Shown here one piece after another: positions 4,142-32,521 of a stretch of DNA of 37,613 bases. The notes under the pieces are model-generated. The model searched no databases. It was not told the DNA's origin and saw only the letters and a program-made list of their open reading frames with translations. How positions within the stretch are numbered: position 1 is the first letter of the stretch; each line of letters begins with the position of its first letter. The DNA lies in the NCBI GenBank assembly GCA_021846285.1, contig JAJZCB010000030.1, positions 1 to 37,613 of the forward strand, in the 5' to 3' direction. This DNA is from Bacillota bacterium. GTDB taxonomy: Bacteria; Bacillota; Bacilli; Alicyclobacillales; SLC66. Both the position numbers and the translations under genes were made by a program.

Positions 4142-4267
4142 ATGCGGCAAATTACCTACATTCGAGAGGAGAATCATACGATCTGGGAAATGAGGACTTT
4201 GTGGAATGAAAATTATCAATATAGGGATTGTCGCGCACGTGGACGCAGGAAAGACAAGTCTGACTGA
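4142..4267 (+). CDS. Possible 41-codon upstream ORF overlapping the Tet(M)-like start
   Basis: An ATG at 4142 sits 10 bp after AGGAG (4127-4131) and opens a 41-codon frame that runs out of phase across the start of the downstream GTPase gene and stops at 4265-4267. Classical tet(M) has a leader ORF and attenuator upstream, so an upstream translated frame would fit that logic, but this peptide does not resemble the known leader and no terminator hairpin was found between the two starts. The second half is Arg/Lys-rich and probably just reads the other gene out of frame. Treat it as a candidate regulatory ORF only. Confidence 0.25.
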   Translation: MRQITYIREENHTIWEMRTLWNENYQYRDCRARGRRKDKSD

Positions 4268-6188
4268 ACGTATTTTATTTGATGCTCACGTCATTGATAA
4301 AGTTGGACGCGTTGATCAGGGAAATACTCAGACAGATTCGATGGAGTTGGAGAAACAGAGAGGCATCACGATTAAGGCGTCCGTCGTTTCTTTTTACGTA
4401 AATGGGATAAAAATCAATTTGATTGACACACCTGGGCATGCGGATTTTATCGCCGAAGTAGAGCGTTCACTGTCTGTGCTGGATGGTGTTATTTTGGTTA
4501 TTTCGGCAGTGGAAGGCGTTCAGGCGCAAACCAAAGTCCTGATGTCAGTGTTGAAGAAGTTGGCTATTCCAACGATATTGTTTGTGAACAAGATTGATCG
4601 AACTGGCGCTCAGTCCGATTCCATCATTAAAAACATCCAGGAAAAACTTACTCCGAACGTAATTCCTCTATCTCAAGTTGAACAGGTGGGCTCGAAGCAG
4701 GCATTTGTAGTTGAAAATCGGTTTGATTGGACTGCGGGCGCCTCTTTTTTGGAGCAATGTATCGAACTTGCTGCGGCAACCGGCCACGAGCAATTATTGG
4801 AGTGGTATGCGAGCGGGGAAGATGTAACCGAAGATCAAGTTAAAGCGGCGTTGAAAAATCAGGTATGGAAAGCCAATTTGCATCCGATATATTTTGGGTC
4901 GGCAGTAACCGGAATGGGTGTATTGGAATTGCTTTCAGGTGTAACGGAATGGTTTCCGGTGAATCCACCTTCAGAACGGACCGCTTTATCCGGCGTCGTG
5001 TTCAAGATTGAAAAAGAACCTTCGGGCGAAAAAATCACCTATGTCAGACTTTTTTCAGGCGTCTTGCGGATGAGAGAGCAAGTTAATGTACAACGCGACA
5101 ACAATAAGAATCAGTTGGAATCATTCACTTACAAGGTGAAAAAACTCCATGCGTTTATCAGTGGCAAGTCCATGATTGCAAGCGAGGTACATCCGGGTGA
5201 TTTCGGAAAGGTATGGGGGTTGAAGGACGCTCAGATTGGGGACATCGTCGGTGAGCGATCTCACCAGATGAAGCGTGTCCACTTTGCGACGCCCCAAATG
5301 GAAACCCGAGTTGAAGCAGTGGATAAAAGCAAGACGCATCAGTTGTATCAAGCGCTTCTCAACCTGGCGGATGAGGATCCGTTAATCGAAGTGGTGAAAG
5401 CCGACATGCACCAAGAGATCTATGTGCGCATTTTCGGTGAAGTGCAAAGAGAAGTCATTGAGTTCACTCTGAAGGAACGCTACGGTGTTGATGTCCAGTT
5501 TTCCGAGTCGAGAATCATCTGCATAGAAAAACCGCGAGGTATCGGACGCGCACTGGACGTCATGGGAGCAGCGGACAATCCATTTTATGCGACTGTTAGA
5601 TTTAATGTTGAGTCCGGACTGTCAGAAAGCGGAGTGCAGTATCGATTGGAAGTTGAGCTTGGGTCGCTGCCTTTGTCCTTTCATAAAGCGATTAAGGAGA
5701 CTGTCCACGACACCCTGAAACAAGGTTTATATGGATGGGAGGTCAGAGATATTGTCGTGACGCTTACCCACACTGGCTACTCGAGCCCGGTGACGACGTC
5801 AGGCGATTTCAGAAAGCTCGTTCCCCTTGTGCTGATGGATGCGCTAGCGGAGGCGGGCACCGATGTTTATGAGCCCATTCATAAGTTCGAATTAACTGTG
5901 CCTGCCGACGCGATGAGCAAAACCATGTTCAATTTGTCCGGAATCAACGCGATTGTCAATGAATCGACTTTGCGCAAGGACATCTGTTTCATTAAAGGCA
6001 CGCTTCCCGTAGCAGCCGCAGATCGATTCAGGGCAAGTTTGCATTCTTTGGCTCAGGGTGAAGGCGTGATGGTGATCGAGCCCTGTGGATTCGCTAAAAT
6101 GCATTCCGATGCACCGATACGAACACGAACAGATCACAATCCACTTAATCGACACGAATACTTGCTCCATGTTCTTCGCGCTTATTGA
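4206..6188 (+). CDS. Tet(M)/Otr(A)-family ribosomal protection GTPase
   Basis: This 660-residue protein is an EF-G-like translational GTPase of the tetracycline ribosomal-protection family. G1 is AHVDAGKTS (10-18), G3 is DTPGH (74-78) and G4 is NKID (128-131). The switch-I GITI and the SLSVLDG segment match Tet(M) closely. Domain IV keeps the tip loop YSSPV (525-529), which in Tet(M) reaches the 16S rRNA site where tetracycline binds. These features favour a true protection protein over EF-G, which is longer and lacks this loop. It is slightly longer than Tet(M) (about 639) and the C-terminal tail differs. Base composition is visibly AT-richer than the flanking genes, suggesting transfer. The RBS is weak (GAGG about 10 bp upstream). 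It need not confer clinical resistance; many soil Bacillota carry divergent homologues. Confidence 0.88.
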   Translation: MKIINIGIVAHVDAGKTSLTERILFDAHVIDKVGRVDQGNTQTDSMELEKQRGITIKASVVSFYVNGIKINLIDTPGHADFIAEVERSLSVLDGVILVISAVEGVQAQTKVLMSVLKKLAIPTILFVNKIDRTGAQSDSIIKNIQEKLTPNVIPLSQVEQVGSKQAFVVENRFDWTAGASFLEQCIELAAATGHEQLLEWYASGEDVTEDQVKAALKNQVWKANLHPIYFGSAVTGMGVLELLSGVTEWFPVNPPSERTALSGVVFKIEKEPSGEKITYVRLFSGVLRMREQVNVQRDNNKNQLESFTYKVKKLHAFISGKSMIASEVHPGDFGKVWGLKDAQIGDIVGERSHQMKRVHFATPQMETRVEAVDKSKTHQLYQALLNLADEDPLIEVVKADMHQEIYVRIFGEVQREVIEFTLKERYGVDVQFSESRIICIEKPRGIGRALDVMGAADNPFYATVRFNVESGLSESGVQYRLEVELGSLPLSFHKAIKETVHDTLKQGLYGWEVRDIVVTLTHTGYSSPVTTSGDFRKLVPLVLMDALAEAGTDVYEPIHKFELTVPADAMSKTMFNLSGINAIVNESTLRKDICFIKGTLPVAAADRFRASLHSLAQGEGVMVIEPCGFAKMHSDAPIRTRTDHNPLNRHEYLLHVLRAY

Positions 6189-13563: not shown

Positions 13564-14877
13564 CTACAGCGTCTGGACCAGCAGGAGCACAGACAAACCC
13601 ATCAGCATAACCACGATGACGCCGCCCCAAAGGCGCGCGAAGATGGTATTGGCGTAGGAACCCATAATGCTTTTTCGGCTGGTGAGGACTACCAGAAACA
13701 GAAGTATTGGAATCATCACCATGGCGCCCAGGGCCTGCGATAGCATGGCGACAAAGTTGAGCGGCAGATGGGGGATCAGGATGGCTGCGGCGGCAGCGAC
13801 AAGACTTCCCACGTAGACGGCATAAAATTTGGGCGCTCCCGATATCCTGTCATTGAGGCTGCGCGCCCACCCAAAAGCGTCTGCGATCGTCCACGACGAT
13901 GACAGGGAAATCGTGATGGCAGCGAGAAATCCCGCATTGAACAGCCCAAATGCGAACAGCACTGCCGCCACATGGCCTGAGGAACGAACCAACGCAGAAA
14001 TGATTGCCGATGGACCGAGCGCATTGGCTTGTGTCACATGTCCGTACAGCGCGGCGCCACACAAAATAATCGCGGTCGCGATGATCACTTGCAAAGCGCT
14101 GCCAAGAAGGGTGTCTATGCGCCCCGTCCGCAACTGTTTCGCCGTGATGCCCTTGTCGATCACCGCGCTGCCCTGAAAGAAGATCATCCAGGGAGCGATG
14201 GCATTGCCCACAGTGGCAATGACAAACCAGACGATGTGACCGTGCATCGCTGCAGGTATCGACCATGAGGCAAAGGCGTGACCAATGGCAGTGAAGCTTG
14301 GATGAGTCAGAAGCGCAATCAGCAGAAAGACGGCATTCAGGGCGCCTACGAACAGAGCAAGCCGTTCTTTGGTCCAATATCCCGTAAACAGGGCGAGTGA
14401 GACGACCAGAACCAAACAGGCGGCGTCAGCGATCCATAGCGGAACGCCAAGCATCACAAGTCCTGCTGTCATGCCGATAAACTCGGTCATCAGGGTCAGC
14501 AGGTTTTCAATCACCAGTGTACCGATGCTGTAGTAGCCCCACCACCGACCAAAGTGGCGAAAGATCAGTTTTGTATAGCCTGTCTGTGTCACCGCGCCAA
14601 GGCGCATGGTCATTTCCTGAATCGTATACGTGAGAGGGGCCAGGCACAAAACGAAGGGAATGAAGAAGCCGATTCCGAATTGCATGCCTGTGACAACATA
14701 CTCGATGACTCCCCCTGCGTCGTTGTCTCCGATCATGGCAAGGAGGCCAGGTCCCATCAAGACCCAAAAGAGCCACGTGTACCTGCGCCAACCGGTGGTC
14801 AAGGTTGCGGGTTGTGGCCATGCGTCTGGCGGCGAAGGGGTGATGGGGGTGAGCGTAGTCGATTCCTGATCTATCAT
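13564..14877 (-). CDS. NRAMP-related divalent metal transporter (NRMT-type), paralog 1
   Basis: This 437-residue membrane protein has about 11 TM segments with the SLC11/NRAMP fold. The classical TM1 motif DPGN is replaced by DAGG (within GDNDAGG, residues 50-56) and the TM6 metal-selecting MPH by APW (IAPWMIFFQGSA). Loss of the TM6 methionine is the hallmark of the NRMT branch, which moves Mg2+ rather than Mn2+/Fe2+. Mg2+ import is therefore the best guess, supported by the clear paralog at 29242-30588, which sits behind an M-box. No M-box is visible in the upstream region of this copy. An XRE-family gene is transcribed divergently. Mn2+ or another divalent ion remains possible. Confidence 0.85.
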   Translation of the reverse strand: MIDQESTTLTPITPSPPDAWPQPATLTTGWRRYTWLFWVLMGPGLLAMIGDNDAGGVIEYVVTGMQFGIGFFIPFVLCLAPLTYTIQEMTMRLGAVTQTGYTKLIFRHFGRWWGYYSIGTLVIENLLTLMTEFIGMTAGLVMLGVPLWIADAACLVLVVSLALFTGYWTKERLALFVGALNAVFLLIALLTHPSFTAIGHAFASWSIPAAMHGHIVWFVIATVGNAIAPWMIFFQGSAVIDKGITAKQLRTGRIDTLLGSALQVIIATAIILCGAALYGHVTQANALGPSAIISALVRSSGHVAAVLFAFGLFNAGFLAAITISLSSSWTIADAFGWARSLNDRISGAPKFYAVYVGSLVAAAAAILIPHLPLNFVAMLSQALGAMVMIPILLFLVVLTSRKSIMGSYANTIFARLWGGVIVVMLMGLSVLLLVQTL

Positions 14878-28789: not shown

Positions 28790-28818
28790 TTGACAACAGT
28801 CTCAAGCGATGGTATACT
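28790..28818 (+). promoter_or_regulatory. Consensus sigma-A promoter of the M-box transcript
   Basis: TTGACA (28790-28795) is perfect and TATACT (28813-28818) is one base from consensus, with a 17-bp spacer. A small hairpin GCGGCAA/TTGCCGC (28823-28829 / 28846-28852) precedes the riboswitch. Confidence 0.85.
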
Positions 28819-28861
28819 GCACGCGGCAAGACAGATTGGAGTTTTTTGCCGCATATAACCA

Positions 28862-29010
28862 GTCCTCGTTAGGCGAGGCTTCTATACGAATATATGCCAC
28901 TGCCCGGAAACGTCGAAAGACGCCAATGGGTTGACCAGGTATTGCCGGCTTAAGGCTTTACTTAATGTGGCTGAGCATCGCTCAAAGTCGTATAGTGCCA
29001 AAGCTCAACC
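28862..29010 (+). promoter_or_regulatory. M-box (ykoK) Mg2+ riboswitch aptamer
   Basis: The sequence carries the conserved M-box blocks in order: CTCGTTAGGCGAGGCT, TGCCACTGCCCGGAAACGTC, GAAAGACGCCAATGGGT, then CTTAATGTGGCTGAGC and GTATAGTGCCAAAGCTC. These match the B. subtilis mgtE (ykoK) leader nearly base for base in the core. M-box RNAs bind several Mg2+ ions and compact when Mg2+ is plentiful, allowing a terminator to form. Here an intrinsic terminator follows at 29062-29090, and CAGGGG just after the aptamer (29011-29016) could pair with its 5' arm as an antiterminator. The gene controlled is the NRMT transporter. Confidence 0.95.
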
Positions 29011-29061
29011 AGGGGGATTGTATAAGCTGTGCACTTTGGTTACGGTGCGTGGGTTACAATG

Positions 29062-29090
29062 CCCCTGAACATGTTCAGGGGTTTCGCTTT
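29062..29090 (+). terminator. Riboswitch-controlled intrinsic terminator
   Basis: CCCCTGAA-CATG-TTCAGGGG (29062-29081) is a perfect 8-bp stem followed by TTTCGCTTT. Placed between the M-box and the transporter gene, it is the expected expression platform, off when Mg2+ is high. Confidence 0.88.
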
Positions 29091-29241
29091 GCGTACGCGC
29101 GACTTTCATTCTCTCCCCGAGAGGCGGTGGTAGGTTTGGATTCGGACTCGTGCAGTCGAAGTACAGGCAGAACAACCGTGTTGCCGGCTGACTGTTTTAT
29201 GCTGAACTTCAGCCTACTACGCCTACGGGAGGGAACCCGCG

Positions 29242-30588
29242 ATGAGCAAACACGTTGCGTACACCCAATTTATCGACTTCGAAGAAGATGTGAAAATACG
29301 CGCTAGAGATCAGGCCAGAGTTGTAGCTTTGCGGGAAAAGAAGGGTTGGCTGTTTCGGTTGATGCTTGGACTGGTCCTGATCGGTCCAGGGGTGCTTGTG
29401 ATGATCGCGGACAACGATGCCGGCGGCGTGATTACTTACGCGCAAACAGGCGCTGCCTATGGGATTGGGTTCTTCATCCCAGCCCTGCTGCTTTCGGGAT
29501 TCATCGCCTATGTCGTTCAGGAGATGACGGTTCGTTTGGGGGCTGTCACGCATCGCGGGCATGCGGAAATGATCTGGGGCCGTTATGGCGCGTTTTGGGG
29601 CTGGTTCTCTCTTGTCGATTTGGTGCTCGCCAATATTTTAACGTTGATCACGGAATTTATCGGCGTCACCCTTGGCCTCGGAGTCTTTGGCGTACCGCAT
29701 GCGGTGAGCGCCGCCGCGGCGATTGCCGTTGACGTAGTTGTGCTGCTCGTTTTGCGTTACTATGCCTGGGAGCGGGTATCACTGTGGATTGCCCTGGGTA
29801 ATCTTGTGTTTATTCCACTGGCGTTAATGGCTCATCCGCACTGGTCAACCGTTGTGGCCGCTTTCTCCACTTGGCGCATTCAAGGGGGTTTTACACCCGC
29901 ATTTCTGTTTATTGTGCTTGCGAATTTTGGAACAACGATTGCCCCGTGGATGCTCTTCTTCCAACAATCGGCTGTTGTGGACAAAGGGTTGACTGTCCAT
30001 GACATTCACCACGGACGCATGGATACGGCGATTGGAACAGTTGCGATGGTGGCCGTGGCTGTGGCGCTGGTCATTTTGACGGGAAGTCTTGTCCACGGCA
30101 TGCCAGGCGCTTCGAATCTGGACATCCAGCAGATTTTGCGGGTGCTCGGTCAACGCCTTGGCCCCATCGGTGAGGATCTGTTCGCTCTCGGTTTAGTCGA
30201 GGCGGGCATGATTGCGGCGATTGCGCTGACCGCCAGCACGTCGTGGGCGATGGGGGAAGCGTTTCAGTGGCCAAAGAGCATCAATATGCCAGCTCGCAGA
30301 GCGTGGCGCTTTTACTTGCCGGGTCTTTTGAGCGCCGTGATCGCCGCTGCCGTCGTACTGATTCCGCATGCTCCCCTCGGATTTCTCAATCTGACGGTGC
30401 AAGTGGTCGCATCGATTTTCATGCCGGCCGCCATGCTCTTCTTACTGCTGCTTCTCAACGATGCAACCATTATGGGCGAGTACAAAAATCGGAAATGGCA
30501 AAATATAGCCGCCTTTAGCATCGTGGGGTTGCTTGTAGCGCTCAACGGTGTGTATGGATTGTCAGTCGTCATGCCGCATCTTTTTTAG
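29242..30588 (+). CDS. NRMT-type Mg2+ transporter under M-box control, paralog 2
   Basis: This 448-residue SLC11-fold membrane protein with about 11 TM segments is closely similar to the minus-strand paralog at 13564-14877. TM1 reads DNDAGG (57-62) in place of the DPGN core, and TM6 reads IAPWMLFFQQSAV with Ala replacing the Mn/Fe-selecting methionine. NRMT proteins with these changes transport Mg2+ and are known M-box targets; the riboswitch 230 bp upstream supports that assignment strongly. It should import Mg2+ at low cytosolic concentration. GGAGGG lies about 10 bp before the ATG. A 56-residue membrane protein follows 66 bp downstream. Confidence 0.92.
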   Translation: MSKHVAYTQFIDFEEDVKIRARDQARVVALREKKGWLFRLMLGLVLIGPGVLVMIADNDAGGVITYAQTGAAYGIGFFIPALLLSGFIAYVVQEMTVRLGAVTHRGHAEMIWGRYGAFWGWFSLVDLVLANILTLITEFIGVTLGLGVFGVPHAVSAAAAIAVDVVVLLVLRYYAWERVSLWIALGNLVFIPLALMAHPHWSTVVAAFSTWRIQGGFTPAFLFIVLANFGTTIAPWMLFFQQSAVVDKGLTVHDIHHGRMDTAIGTVAMVAVAVALVILTGSLVHGMPGASNLDIQQILRVLGQRLGPIGEDLFALGLVEAGMIAAIALTASTSWAMGEAFQWPKSINMPARRAWRFYLPGLLSAVIAAAVVLIPHAPLGFLNLTVQVVASIFMPAAMLFLLLLLNDATIMGEYKNRKWQNIAAFSIVGLLVALNGVYGLSVVMPHLF

Positions 30589-30654
30589 AGCTTGTTCGCC
30601 AGTGTTCAGATCCATGGACGGAATCCACGTCAAGGTATACGAGGGGTGATTGCG

Positions 30655-30825
30655 GTGAAAAAGGATACGCTTAATCTTGTCACACGATCGGACTACCCGG
30701 CGCCCGTGGAACTGACAAGAGCTCAGTTGAGAGGCTGGGTTCGAGTTGTGTTTTGGGGCCTTCGCGTCTATATCGTTGTCATGATCGCGCTCGTTGCCAT
30801 CGGATTTGCTCGCGGTCACGCATGA
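30655..30825 (+). CDS. 56-residue single-pass membrane protein, downstream of NRMT
   Basis: This small protein has a polar N-terminal half (LVTRSDYPAPVELTRAQL) and one C-terminal TM helix (VVFWGLRVYIVVMIALVAIGF). GAGGGG (30641-30646) precedes GTG 30655 by 8 bp, a convincing initiation site. It follows the Mg2+ transporter with no terminator between, so it should be under the same M-box. A regulator or accessory subunit of the transporter, by analogy with small proteins that act on other Mg2+ transporters, is a guess; no family was recognised. Confidence 0.7.
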   Translation: MKKDTLNLVTRSDYPAPVELTRAQLRGWVRVVFWGLRVYIVVMIALVAIGFARGHA

Positions 30826-30918: not shown

Positions 30919-32250
30919 CTAGCAGCAGTAGCGCCGACTGCGCTTCTGGCGCTCGTCGCGGTCGGGGAAGTCGTCAGGATCGTCCTCATCAGGGCTTATC
31001 ATCGGTCGTCCGCGATGGGCATTCGTTTGACCAGCGCTATCTTTGCTGTCTGGCGAACCTGGGATGCCGGAGGCATTTTCAAATGTGCCAAATACGATCG
31101 GTTCGCCGTCTTTCACCATCTGCCTACCCTTGGCAAACACGTGGCGGATCTGATACCGCTCGTCAGTCAACAGCAAATCGGCGTCGTATCCTGGATGGAT
31201 CGCGCCCTTGTGTTCCAGCTTCAGGACTCTCGCAACGTGTCTTGTCACGATGCCTATGGCCACTTCGATGGGAACTTCCTCATCGACGATTGCGTCGCGT
31301 GTTTCTTCCCATAGAGTCGTAATCGACCCAATGCCCATGACCACCAATTTGCCCTTGTCGTCAAAGATCGGAGAACTGCCGTTGCTGTCTGAACTCATCG
31401 TGATCAAATGCGGCTTCACGCCCGCATCGAGCAGTCGTCGAATGGCCAGCGACGGCTTGACGGAAACGTGATCGTGTTCATCCGGACGGATTCCCGACGT
31501 GACGTCTACGATTCCGCCGTCCCTGCCGTAACGGATGGCTTCCTTCAACAGGTCCGCGTTGCGGTTCAGATGCGTCGGAGTGAACGTTGATTTTGGCAAT
31601 TCGGTTTTCTTGAGCACTTCAAAGAGGATGTCCAGTTTGCTGTCGTCATCCCCGACATGCAGGTGCACTACGCCAGCCTTTCCGGATAACAGCCCGCCAA
31701 CGCGAGCTTCACTGGCGAGTTCCGAAAGGTCATGGTCGCTGGGGTGGCTGGAACGCATGTCGGAAATCGCGATTTCCCCTACTCCAATTACTTTATCGAT
31801 CAGGACAATATCGGACCGTGGCATCCCGGTGATTGTACGCGTGGGGATCTGATAGGCGCCACAGTAGATGTAGGTGCTCACCCCTTCAAAATCCAGCGCC
31901 ATAGCCTTGGCCAACAGTTCACGGGTGGTCCTCGTCACACCGTCCGTACCGAGGACTCCGACAGCTGTCGTCACGCCTGACGCAGTGATGTGGCTGAGTG
32001 AAATTTCCGGCGTCCGATAGTGAAACCCTCCCTCTCCGCCGCCTCCGGCCATGTGCACGTGTTGGTCGACCAGACCCGGAAACAGCGTCAGGCCGTCGGC
32101 GTCGAGTTCAACAATGCCAGGAAATGAGCCATGGAGACTGAGATCGTCGGCAATGGCCAATATGTGGCGGCCGCCGATCAAAATATCTTTCTGACCCAAC
32201 GGTTTTGGCGCGTATACGGTGGCGCCGCGAATCAGGGTGAGCAAGGCCAT
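30919..32250 (-). CDS. iadA: Isoaspartyl dipeptidase (beta-aspartyl peptidase)
   Basis: This 443-residue amidohydrolase-superfamily enzyme matches IadA: HVHMAGGGGEGGFHYRTPE with the metal-binding HxH, THLNRN, the catalytic Asp in MSSDSNGSSPIFDD and PGYDADLLL. It releases isoaspartate from beta-aspartyl dipeptides arising from damaged proteins. In E. coli IadA the metal-bridging residue is a carbamylated Lys in IGVKCAISD; here the segment reads IGVGEIAISD, aligning Glu with that Lys. A ~50-residue acidic/basic tail ending RRYCC extends beyond the usual ~390 residues. Start 32250 is chosen because GGAGG lies 7 bp upstream; the frame continues 61 codons further without an RBS. Confidence 0.88.
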   Translation of the reverse strand: MALLTLIRGATVYAPKPLGQKDILIGGRHILAIADDLSLHGSFPGIVELDADGLTLFPGLVDQHVHMAGGGGEGGFHYRTPEISLSHITASGVTTAVGVLGTDGVTRTTRELLAKAMALDFEGVSTYIYCGAYQIPTRTITGMPRSDIVLIDKVIGVGEIAISDMRSSHPSDHDLSELASEARVGGLLSGKAGVVHLHVGDDDSKLDILFEVLKKTELPKSTFTPTHLNRNADLLKEAIRYGRDGGIVDVTSGIRPDEHDHVSVKPSLAIRRLLDAGVKPHLITMSSDSNGSSPIFDDKGKLVVMGIGSITTLWEETRDAIVDEEVPIEVAIGIVTRHVARVLKLEHKGAIHPGYDADLLLTDERYQIRHVFAKGRQMVKDGEPIVFGTFENASGIPGSPDSKDSAGQTNAHRGRPMISPDEDDPDDFPDRDERQKRSRRYCC

Positions 32251-32521
32251 GCCACAACCTCCATCGTGGATTTCCTTACCCAGTATGGTCCAGGAACGGG
32301 TTGTTTCAGACACAGGTGCGGGGGTAAAAGGAACTTGGGTTTCCTGTGGAATTCGCTTTTCTGCCGAGGGGCTGCTCACAGGCGTCGTGTATCCGGAGGT
32401 TTTCCCGGGTCGCGGGCCAGAACATGAAAACATGAACTATCGCAGTAGTGTAACAACGGGAATGCGAGTATGATAGATGTTGATGATTATCACCGCTTTA
32501 CTGGGAAAGGGGTTCGTGTTT

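Follow-up and report, generated by a model that had tools for sequence, protein, structure and literature searches.

Introduction

To our knowledge, carriers of the SLC11 family have been studied as single proteins. The described systems closest to the locus treated here belong to the NRMT branch of this family. In Clostridium acetobutylicum, two NrmT operons, Ca_c0685 and Ca_c3329, are under M-box control according to the main text of Shin et al. 2014 (PMC4072509), where the M-box precedes an Nramp-related transporter, control by a terminator is proposed and an extra gene encodes a homologue of the MgtE N-terminal cytoplasmic domain. The same text describes an NrmT without M-box, from Acidobacterium, which behaved as a Mn transporter, and it mentions neither Alicyclobacillus, Sulfobacillus and Acidithiobacillus nor archaea. 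EleNRMT of Eggerthella lenta (7qia, 7qji) carries Mg2+ and Mn2+, not Ca2+, and does so without H+, as stated in the main text of eLife 74589 (PMC8806188), which gives the NRMT signature as DxxG in TM1 and TxxA/T in TM6.

We analyzed a window of 37,613 nucleotides from a Bacillota bacterium (assembly GCA_021846285.1, contig JAJZCB010000030.1). An original prediction, made from the letters of the DNA alone, had placed a complete Mg2+-responsive unit at 28790-30825, and these boundaries proved correct. Promoter, M-box, terminator hairpin, NRMT-type gene and a gene for a 56-residue protein form one unit with the following parts, all on the forward strand:

28790..28818, +, sigma-70 type promoter with extended -10 (TTGACA-17-TATACT; 11/12 match, TG before the -10)
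28858..29022, +, M-box (ykoK) Mg2+ riboswitch aptamer, RF00380 (covariance-model match)
29010..29015, +, CAGGGG, part of the P1 3' strand, candidate antiterminator (sequence, duplex energy)
29061..29082, +, terminator hairpin of 9 pairs, then an interrupted T-tract (sequence, predicted fold)
29227..29233, +, likely ribosome-binding site of the transporter gene, GGGAGGG (judged by eye)
29242..30588, +, NRMT-type SLC11 transporter, 448 aa (Pfam Nramp, EleNRMT match, site residues)
30641..30646, +, likely ribosome-binding site of the small gene, GAGGGG (judged by eye)
30655..30825, +, gene of the proposed NRMT partner, a small membrane protein of 56 aa with one helix, GTG start (homologues, pN/pS)

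The layout resembles that of the C. acetobutylicum NrmT operons, and since M-box control of NRMT genes has been published (Shin 2014, PMC4072509), the core unit is another member of a known arrangement. The extra gene is different. In place of the homologue of the MgtE N-terminal domain described in that main text, the unit encodes a single-helix membrane protein without Pfam match, and no MgtE-N or CBS-domain homologue is found in the operon (Pfam on the small protein; both flanking genes identified otherwise). The upstream neighbor is an acyl-CoA dehydrogenase gene (Pfam) and the downstream neighbor a beta-aspartyl peptidase gene on the opposite strand (30919-32433, NCBIfam). The Mg2+-responsive NRMT unit of the original prediction is thus real but already published, and the small protein had been named there while its unusual nature was missed. 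It is this protein that stands out, and we newly propose it as a subunit or regulator of its transporter lineage, taking the place of the MgtE-N-like protein of Shin 2014.

Results

The prediction of a canonical M-box was borne out by a search with Rfam RF00380, which returned 153.4 bits against a gathering threshold of 44 (E 2.7e-35) and covered model positions 1-169 of 169. This match is the only one in the genome. Judging from the Rfam family and the NRMT literature, the ligand would be Mg2+. The consensus promoter likewise stood, and comparable promoters accompany related M-boxes: at least 10 of 12 matches within 100 bases upstream were seen for 30 of 41 M-boxes (that of the window plus 40 M-box loci among 80 homologous loci) compared with 1.5% of single-base shuffles.

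The predicted intrinsic terminator is present as well, with a 9-pair hairpin and a weak T-tract that is interrupted in the window (TTTCGCTTTG). A terminator scan of the 41 leaders found the hairpin in 38 and none in 3. A strong terminator, defined by at least 8 pairs, at least 5 G-C and at least 5 T in 8, was found in 27 leaders and was absent in 14; shuffled leaders (20 single-base rounds) yielded a mean of 0.1 and never more than 1. When 28826-29095 was folded in silico, P1 and the terminator appeared together (z-score -2.05), as would be expected for the OFF state, and the hairpin appears in both the minimum-free-energy and the centroid structure. The CAGGGG strand, first proposed as an antiterminator at 29011-29016, actually lies at 29010-29015, and its pairing with the 5' arm of the terminator was upheld (computed duplex energy -12.9 kcal/mol). 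Across 38 leaders, duplexes of the P1 3' strand with the terminator 5' arm averaged -12.6 kcal/mol, versus -7.4 (sd 0.4) for shuffled arms. Arms taken from foreign loci still paired at a mean of -11.5 kcal/mol, and the own arm did better than the median foreign arm in 27 of the 38; own arms being only slightly better, the pairing is conserved with modest covariation. As far as the sequence goes, the expression platform is predicted to be able to switch between an antiterminator and a terminator, and a hairpin of this kind is kept in nearly all leaders.

The small open reading frame begins with a GTG at 30655 and its stop codon ends at 30825. Searches with its product against Pfam, NCBIfam and PDB sequences gave nothing significant; PDB matches at E 0.7-1 were taken as chance, and identity with a known family was rejected. 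The protein is under purifying selection, with pN/pS values of 0.06-0.34 compared with 0.03-0.19 for the transporter (14 scorable pairs of 15; uncorrected, several near saturation). The pair L135/L138 could not be scored, having 0 synonymous changes and 1 replacement change. Homologues are 49-112 residues long, depending on the start codon chosen, and share a core W-x-L-R-x-Y-x3-M in which W, L, R, Y and M are invariant across 95 aligned rows. In each of the 78 unique sequences, lysine and arginine are more abundant before the helix, on its N-terminal side, than after it; the predicted topology is thus N-terminus inside and C-terminus outside.

An AlphaFold2 model of a read-through chain of window transporter and small protein (pLDDT 77.8, pTM 0.80) shows residues 499-526 as a helix (block means 75, 84 and 81), preceded by 34 residues below 50. 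In a fold alignment, 9f6q, 9f6n, 9f6p, 8ont and 5m87, which we take to be 12-helix NRAMPs, reach model residues 511-527; other NRAMPs, presumably of 11 helices, stop at 441-448. The model thus hints that the helix of the small protein may sit near the place of TM12. We did not rely on this idea because unrelated carriers of the same fold also extend to 509-527, because the alignment gave first and last residues only and the AlphaFold2 chain no interface error, and because the N-inside charge rule fits the direction of TM12, which in NRAMPs runs from outside to inside, poorly. An archaeal counterpart of the model, built on 8 sequences, reached a pLDDT of only 38.6. Structure prediction is compatible with a helix beside the carrier, and is not a test of such contact.

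The linkage of the small protein to SLC11 genes is close and nearly exclusive. From 552 transporter relatives in a genome collection the best 80 were retained (57-98% identity), so that more distant relatives are under-sampled, and in all 80 of these NRMT loci the small protein lies directly downstream on the same strand. Among these best 80, the gap between transporter stop and small-protein start has a median of 29.5 nt and measures at most 60 nt in 59 loci and at most 220 nt in 79, the exception (L148) having a stop inside its transporter frame. By record titles, the bacterial loci come from Alicyclobacillus, Sulfobacillus, Sulfoacidibacillus, Ferroacidibacillus, Acidithiobacillus and an Acidiphilium metagenome-assembled genome (MAG), and the archaeal ones from 1 Micrarchaeota and 8 Thermoplasmata MAGs, although MAG labels in such titles may be wrong. 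These genera and archaeal groups are acidophiles. An M-box was matched in 40 of the best 80 loci (18, 18, 2 and 2 per 20) and in none of their Acidithiobacillus and archaeal loci by RF00380; three Bacillota-type loci (L103, L104, L121) also gave no match, and upstream sequence is too short at L097 and L145 for absence to be read. With the M-box in 40 and the small protein in all 80, the two proteins stay together at loci that show no riboswitch.

The small protein of the window was matched in 20 of 61 relative genomes, which are those of loci L022-L041 (transporter identity 51-100%), and all 20 of these close NRMT orthologues carry an M-box; the 61 relatives and the 80 loci overlap in several genomes (e.g., L084 and G001). 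A profile built from 17 small proteins (A1) matched 8 of 398 genomes from the phylum of the window, 4 of 194 from that of a Thermoplasmata record and 3 of 299 from that of an Acidithiobacillus record. Across these three phylum samples there were 12 + 4 + 4 = 20 matches, 19 of them right behind an Nramp-type gene, counting 2 from the window's own genome and 3 from the two centre genomes. The match at L078 was judged to be chance, as it lies inside a 496-residue frame at a locus without Nramp gene.

The pair is also found on plasmids. The A. caldus SM-1 megaplasmid carries transporter and small gene with a 10-nt gap, and the conjugative A. cryptum plasmid pACRY04 (L165) carries transporter, small gene and then an MgtC/SapB gene, a row that is possibly a mobile Mg2+ module. 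In the A. caldus and A. cryptum records, the transporter has a generic name as a divalent metal transporter, and its partner is called 'hypothetical protein'.

A longer relative of the small protein accompanies a second transporter group, whose ion site reads ENDAPS or ENDGPS in TM1 and GATITPW in TM6. Judged by eye, the longer protein follows the transporter in 12 of 16 such loci; at the other four, a frame that we take to be methyltransferase-like occupies its position. The group is present in the window's own genome on contig 119 (L052, 1331-2924), as an ENDAPS / GATITPW transporter with a longer small membrane protein.

In a FastTree phylogeny of 91 tips, rooted on ScaDMT and using 41 of the 80 loci, all carriers of the small protein fall into one clade of 65 tips (support 1.0), of which 58 have the protein and 7 lack it; the clade shows their shared ancestry. 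The 7 tips without it form two lineages, one of which includes a second SLC11 gene of the window at 13564-14877 on the reverse strand. In this tree EleNRMT lies in a separate clade, joined to that of the window transporter at a node with a support of only 0.58. Together with the 17 EleNRMT-type sequences that were sampled in the window's phylum, EleNRMT forms a clade of support 0.993. The small protein had no match at E 1 in 22 EleNRMT-type and DTDAGS-type loci. In 2 of 20 scanned loci of these two types, M-boxes cut by the sequence edge were seen (L201:1-145, L204:1-83); the transporter is over 1.3 kb further downstream, and there may be an intervening gene, as Shin 2014 describes for its operons.

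The product of 29242-30588 matched the Pfam Nramp family with 212.1 bits. Its best match among PDB sequences was EleNRMT (7qia, 195.6 bits, about 32% identity), the next being MntH at 60, and a fold search with the model tied EleNRMT with human NRAMP1 (Z 40.7 and 40.2). The cut-offs of NCBIfam were missed for MntH (115 vs 430 bits), nramp (60.9 vs 272.5) and Nramp_1 (46 vs 50). In the alignment, the ion site reads DNDAGG in TM1 and GTTIAPW in TM6, so DAGG and TTIA match the NRMT signature, DAGG and APW stand where classical NRAMPs have DPGN and MPH, and the TM6 methionine of Mn/Fe NRAMPs is replaced. Both TM6b histidines of the H+ path are lost relative to ScaDMT, one to W and one to Q, as they are in EleNRMT (W and N), with which the transporter also shares the DxxG/TxxA site. 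The TM3 glutamate is retained, the E of TEFIG aligning with Glu 133 of EleNRMT as numbered in that main text. In contrast to the window locus, no partner protein of EleNRMT is mentioned in the main text of eLife 74589 (PMC8806188).

The view of the transporter as an SLC11 protein with motifs of the NRMT branch was therefore confirmed by alignment. The TM1 and TM6 motifs are present as claimed but not decisive alone, because the paralogue at 13564-14877 (41% identity to the first transporter) shares DNDAGG and APW, and the only M-box of the genome belongs to the other gene. This paralogue has GNAIAPW in TM6, hence NxxA instead of TxxA, and no small protein. The transporter is of the SLC11/NRMT type, and the Rfam family together with the NRMT literature suggests Mg2+ as its main cargo; as the protein falls outside the EleNRMT clade in this tree, the case for Mg2+ is based on the M-box, together with the site residues and the transporter content of the genome. 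The further claim that a Mn2+/Fe2+ NRAMP label would be wrong holds for the most part, given the replaced H+ histidines and the unmatched CorA and MgtE, but is too strongly worded, since EleNRMT moves Mn2+ besides Mg2+. Databases label such transporters 'NRAMP family divalent metal transporter' or 'divalent metal cation transporter'.

Neither CorA nor MgtE was matched at E 0.001 in the window's own genome (98% complete, 164 contigs). All 14 control genomes had a CorA match, 13 of them above the cut-off, and 9 had MgtE. Of the 61 relatives, CorA was present in 4 of the 20 with a close small protein versus 27 of the 41 without (Fisher p 0.001, kinship uncorrected), where 'with' denotes a match to the window's own small-protein sequence and some of the 41 carry the longer relative (e.g., G011, G013). 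MgtE exceeded its cut-off in 1 of the 61, and weak matches below the cut-off occurred in three genomes with the small protein (G001, G002, G051). For 14 of the 61 (e.g., G003, G004, G006, G024), several of which are incomplete assemblies, CorA, over-cut-off MgtE and the window-type small protein were all unmatched.

Discussion

The small protein follows its transporter across acid-loving bacteria and archaea and may thus be an overlooked part of the transporter. We think it probable that an attenuation OFF switch drives a two-gene Mg2+ uptake cassette in which the small protein is the dedicated partner of the transporter. At low Mg2+, the P1 3' strand (29010-29015) would be free to pair with the 5' arm of the terminator, and RNA polymerase would continue into both genes. 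When Mg2+ is high, the M-box would fold, P1 would capture 29010-29015, and the terminator would form and stop transcription. The riboswitch step would proceed as published in the main text of Shin 2014 (PMC4072509). The transporter would act as an SLC11/NRMT-type Mg2+ importer devoid of H+-coupling histidines, and the 56-residue protein, with its N-terminus inside and its C-terminus outside, would bind the transporter and stabilize or gate it.

A bolder version, which we put forward tentatively and consider possible rather than probable, is that acidophile NRMTs in general are two-component systems, an SLC11 carrier with a gating or stabilizing single-helix subunit. They would have spread as a two-gene cassette among bacteria and archaea of acidic sites and would be the main route of Mg2+ import in cells that have neither CorA nor MgtE. 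In acid-loving cells the membrane potential is small or positive inside. Unless gated, a Mg2+ carrier without coupling would leak under such a potential, and the small protein is our proposal for the gate. Against the two-gene Mg2+ uptake cassette with a dedicated partner stand the 7 of 65 transporters in the small-protein clade that lack the protein, among them the paralogue in the window, the 4 of 20 small-protein genomes that also keep CorA, the weak T-tract of the window and the modest covariation.

Small single-helix regulators that are co-made with transporters or act on them are known from other transporter families, namely MgtS, MgtR, MntS and KdpF. The protein described here is likened to them by size and transporter link, and unlike them it follows SLC11 proteins, in bacteria and archaea. 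The precedent also suggests another reading, in which the small protein would serve the response to low Mg2+ independently, for example by acting on another transporter or the membrane, and would merely share the operon. Co-transcription under the M-box would suffice to explain its presence in Bacillota, and E. coli MntS, co-made with MntH, is proposed to act on the exporter MntP. At each of the 40 loci among the 80 that gave no M-box match (upstream sequence being short at L097 and L145), the protein nevertheless adjoins NRMT, the linkage recurs in archaeal records, on plasmids and beside the second transporter group, and elsewhere in the three phylum samples the protein was not found, bar the one chance match; we regard independence as unlikely. 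Far less probable still is that the frame is no gene and only a chance or decayed C-terminal piece of the transporter. In the window it does lie in the transporter frame, 22 codons away, but the frames differ in 49 of the best 80 loci, a Shine-Dalgarno-like sequence precedes the ATG or GTG at many of 20 loci inspected, and the low pN/pS, the invariant residues and the annotation in A. caldus and A. cryptum also speak against a remnant.

The other point that has to be weighed is the cargo. The transporter could be mainly a Mn2+ or broad divalent importer, with the M-box only tuning its expression. EleNRMT moves both ions according to the main text of eLife 74589 (PMC8806188), and the Acidobacterium NrmT without M-box rescued Mn uptake fully and Mg uptake only at low millimolar Mg, as described in the main text of Shin 2014 (PMC4072509). 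Members of the sister transporter group point the same way. At two of their loci (L059, L071) the downstream frame is presumably MntR-like. The M-box at 20 of 20 close orthologues among the relatives, the unmatched CorA and MgtE of the genome and the replaced TM6 methionine argue against such a role, to which we give little credence.

If the two-gene cassette with a dedicated partner is correct, the conserved one-helix protein would be the first dedicated SLC11 subunit, as far as the open-access papers searched show; among these we found no conserved single-helix SLC11 partner. The pair could explain Mg2+ uptake at low pH in organisms without CorA and MgtE, and it would help to separate Mg2+-type from Mn2+-type SLC11 genes in databases.

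Two minor observations are added here. On the Citrobacter freundii plasmid pPSV, an unannotated frame (L166:3683-3851) gave a weak match to the small protein (E 0.0026) and was left out of all counts; it sits between an NRMT gene (46.8%) and a CBS-domain gene, and if it is real, the partner extends beyond acidophiles. Elsewhere in the window, 4206-6188 on the forward strand encodes an elongation-factor-G-like GTPase that resembles tetracycline ribosomal protection proteins and scores 738 bits with NCBIfam tet_protect, just below the cut-off of 775.
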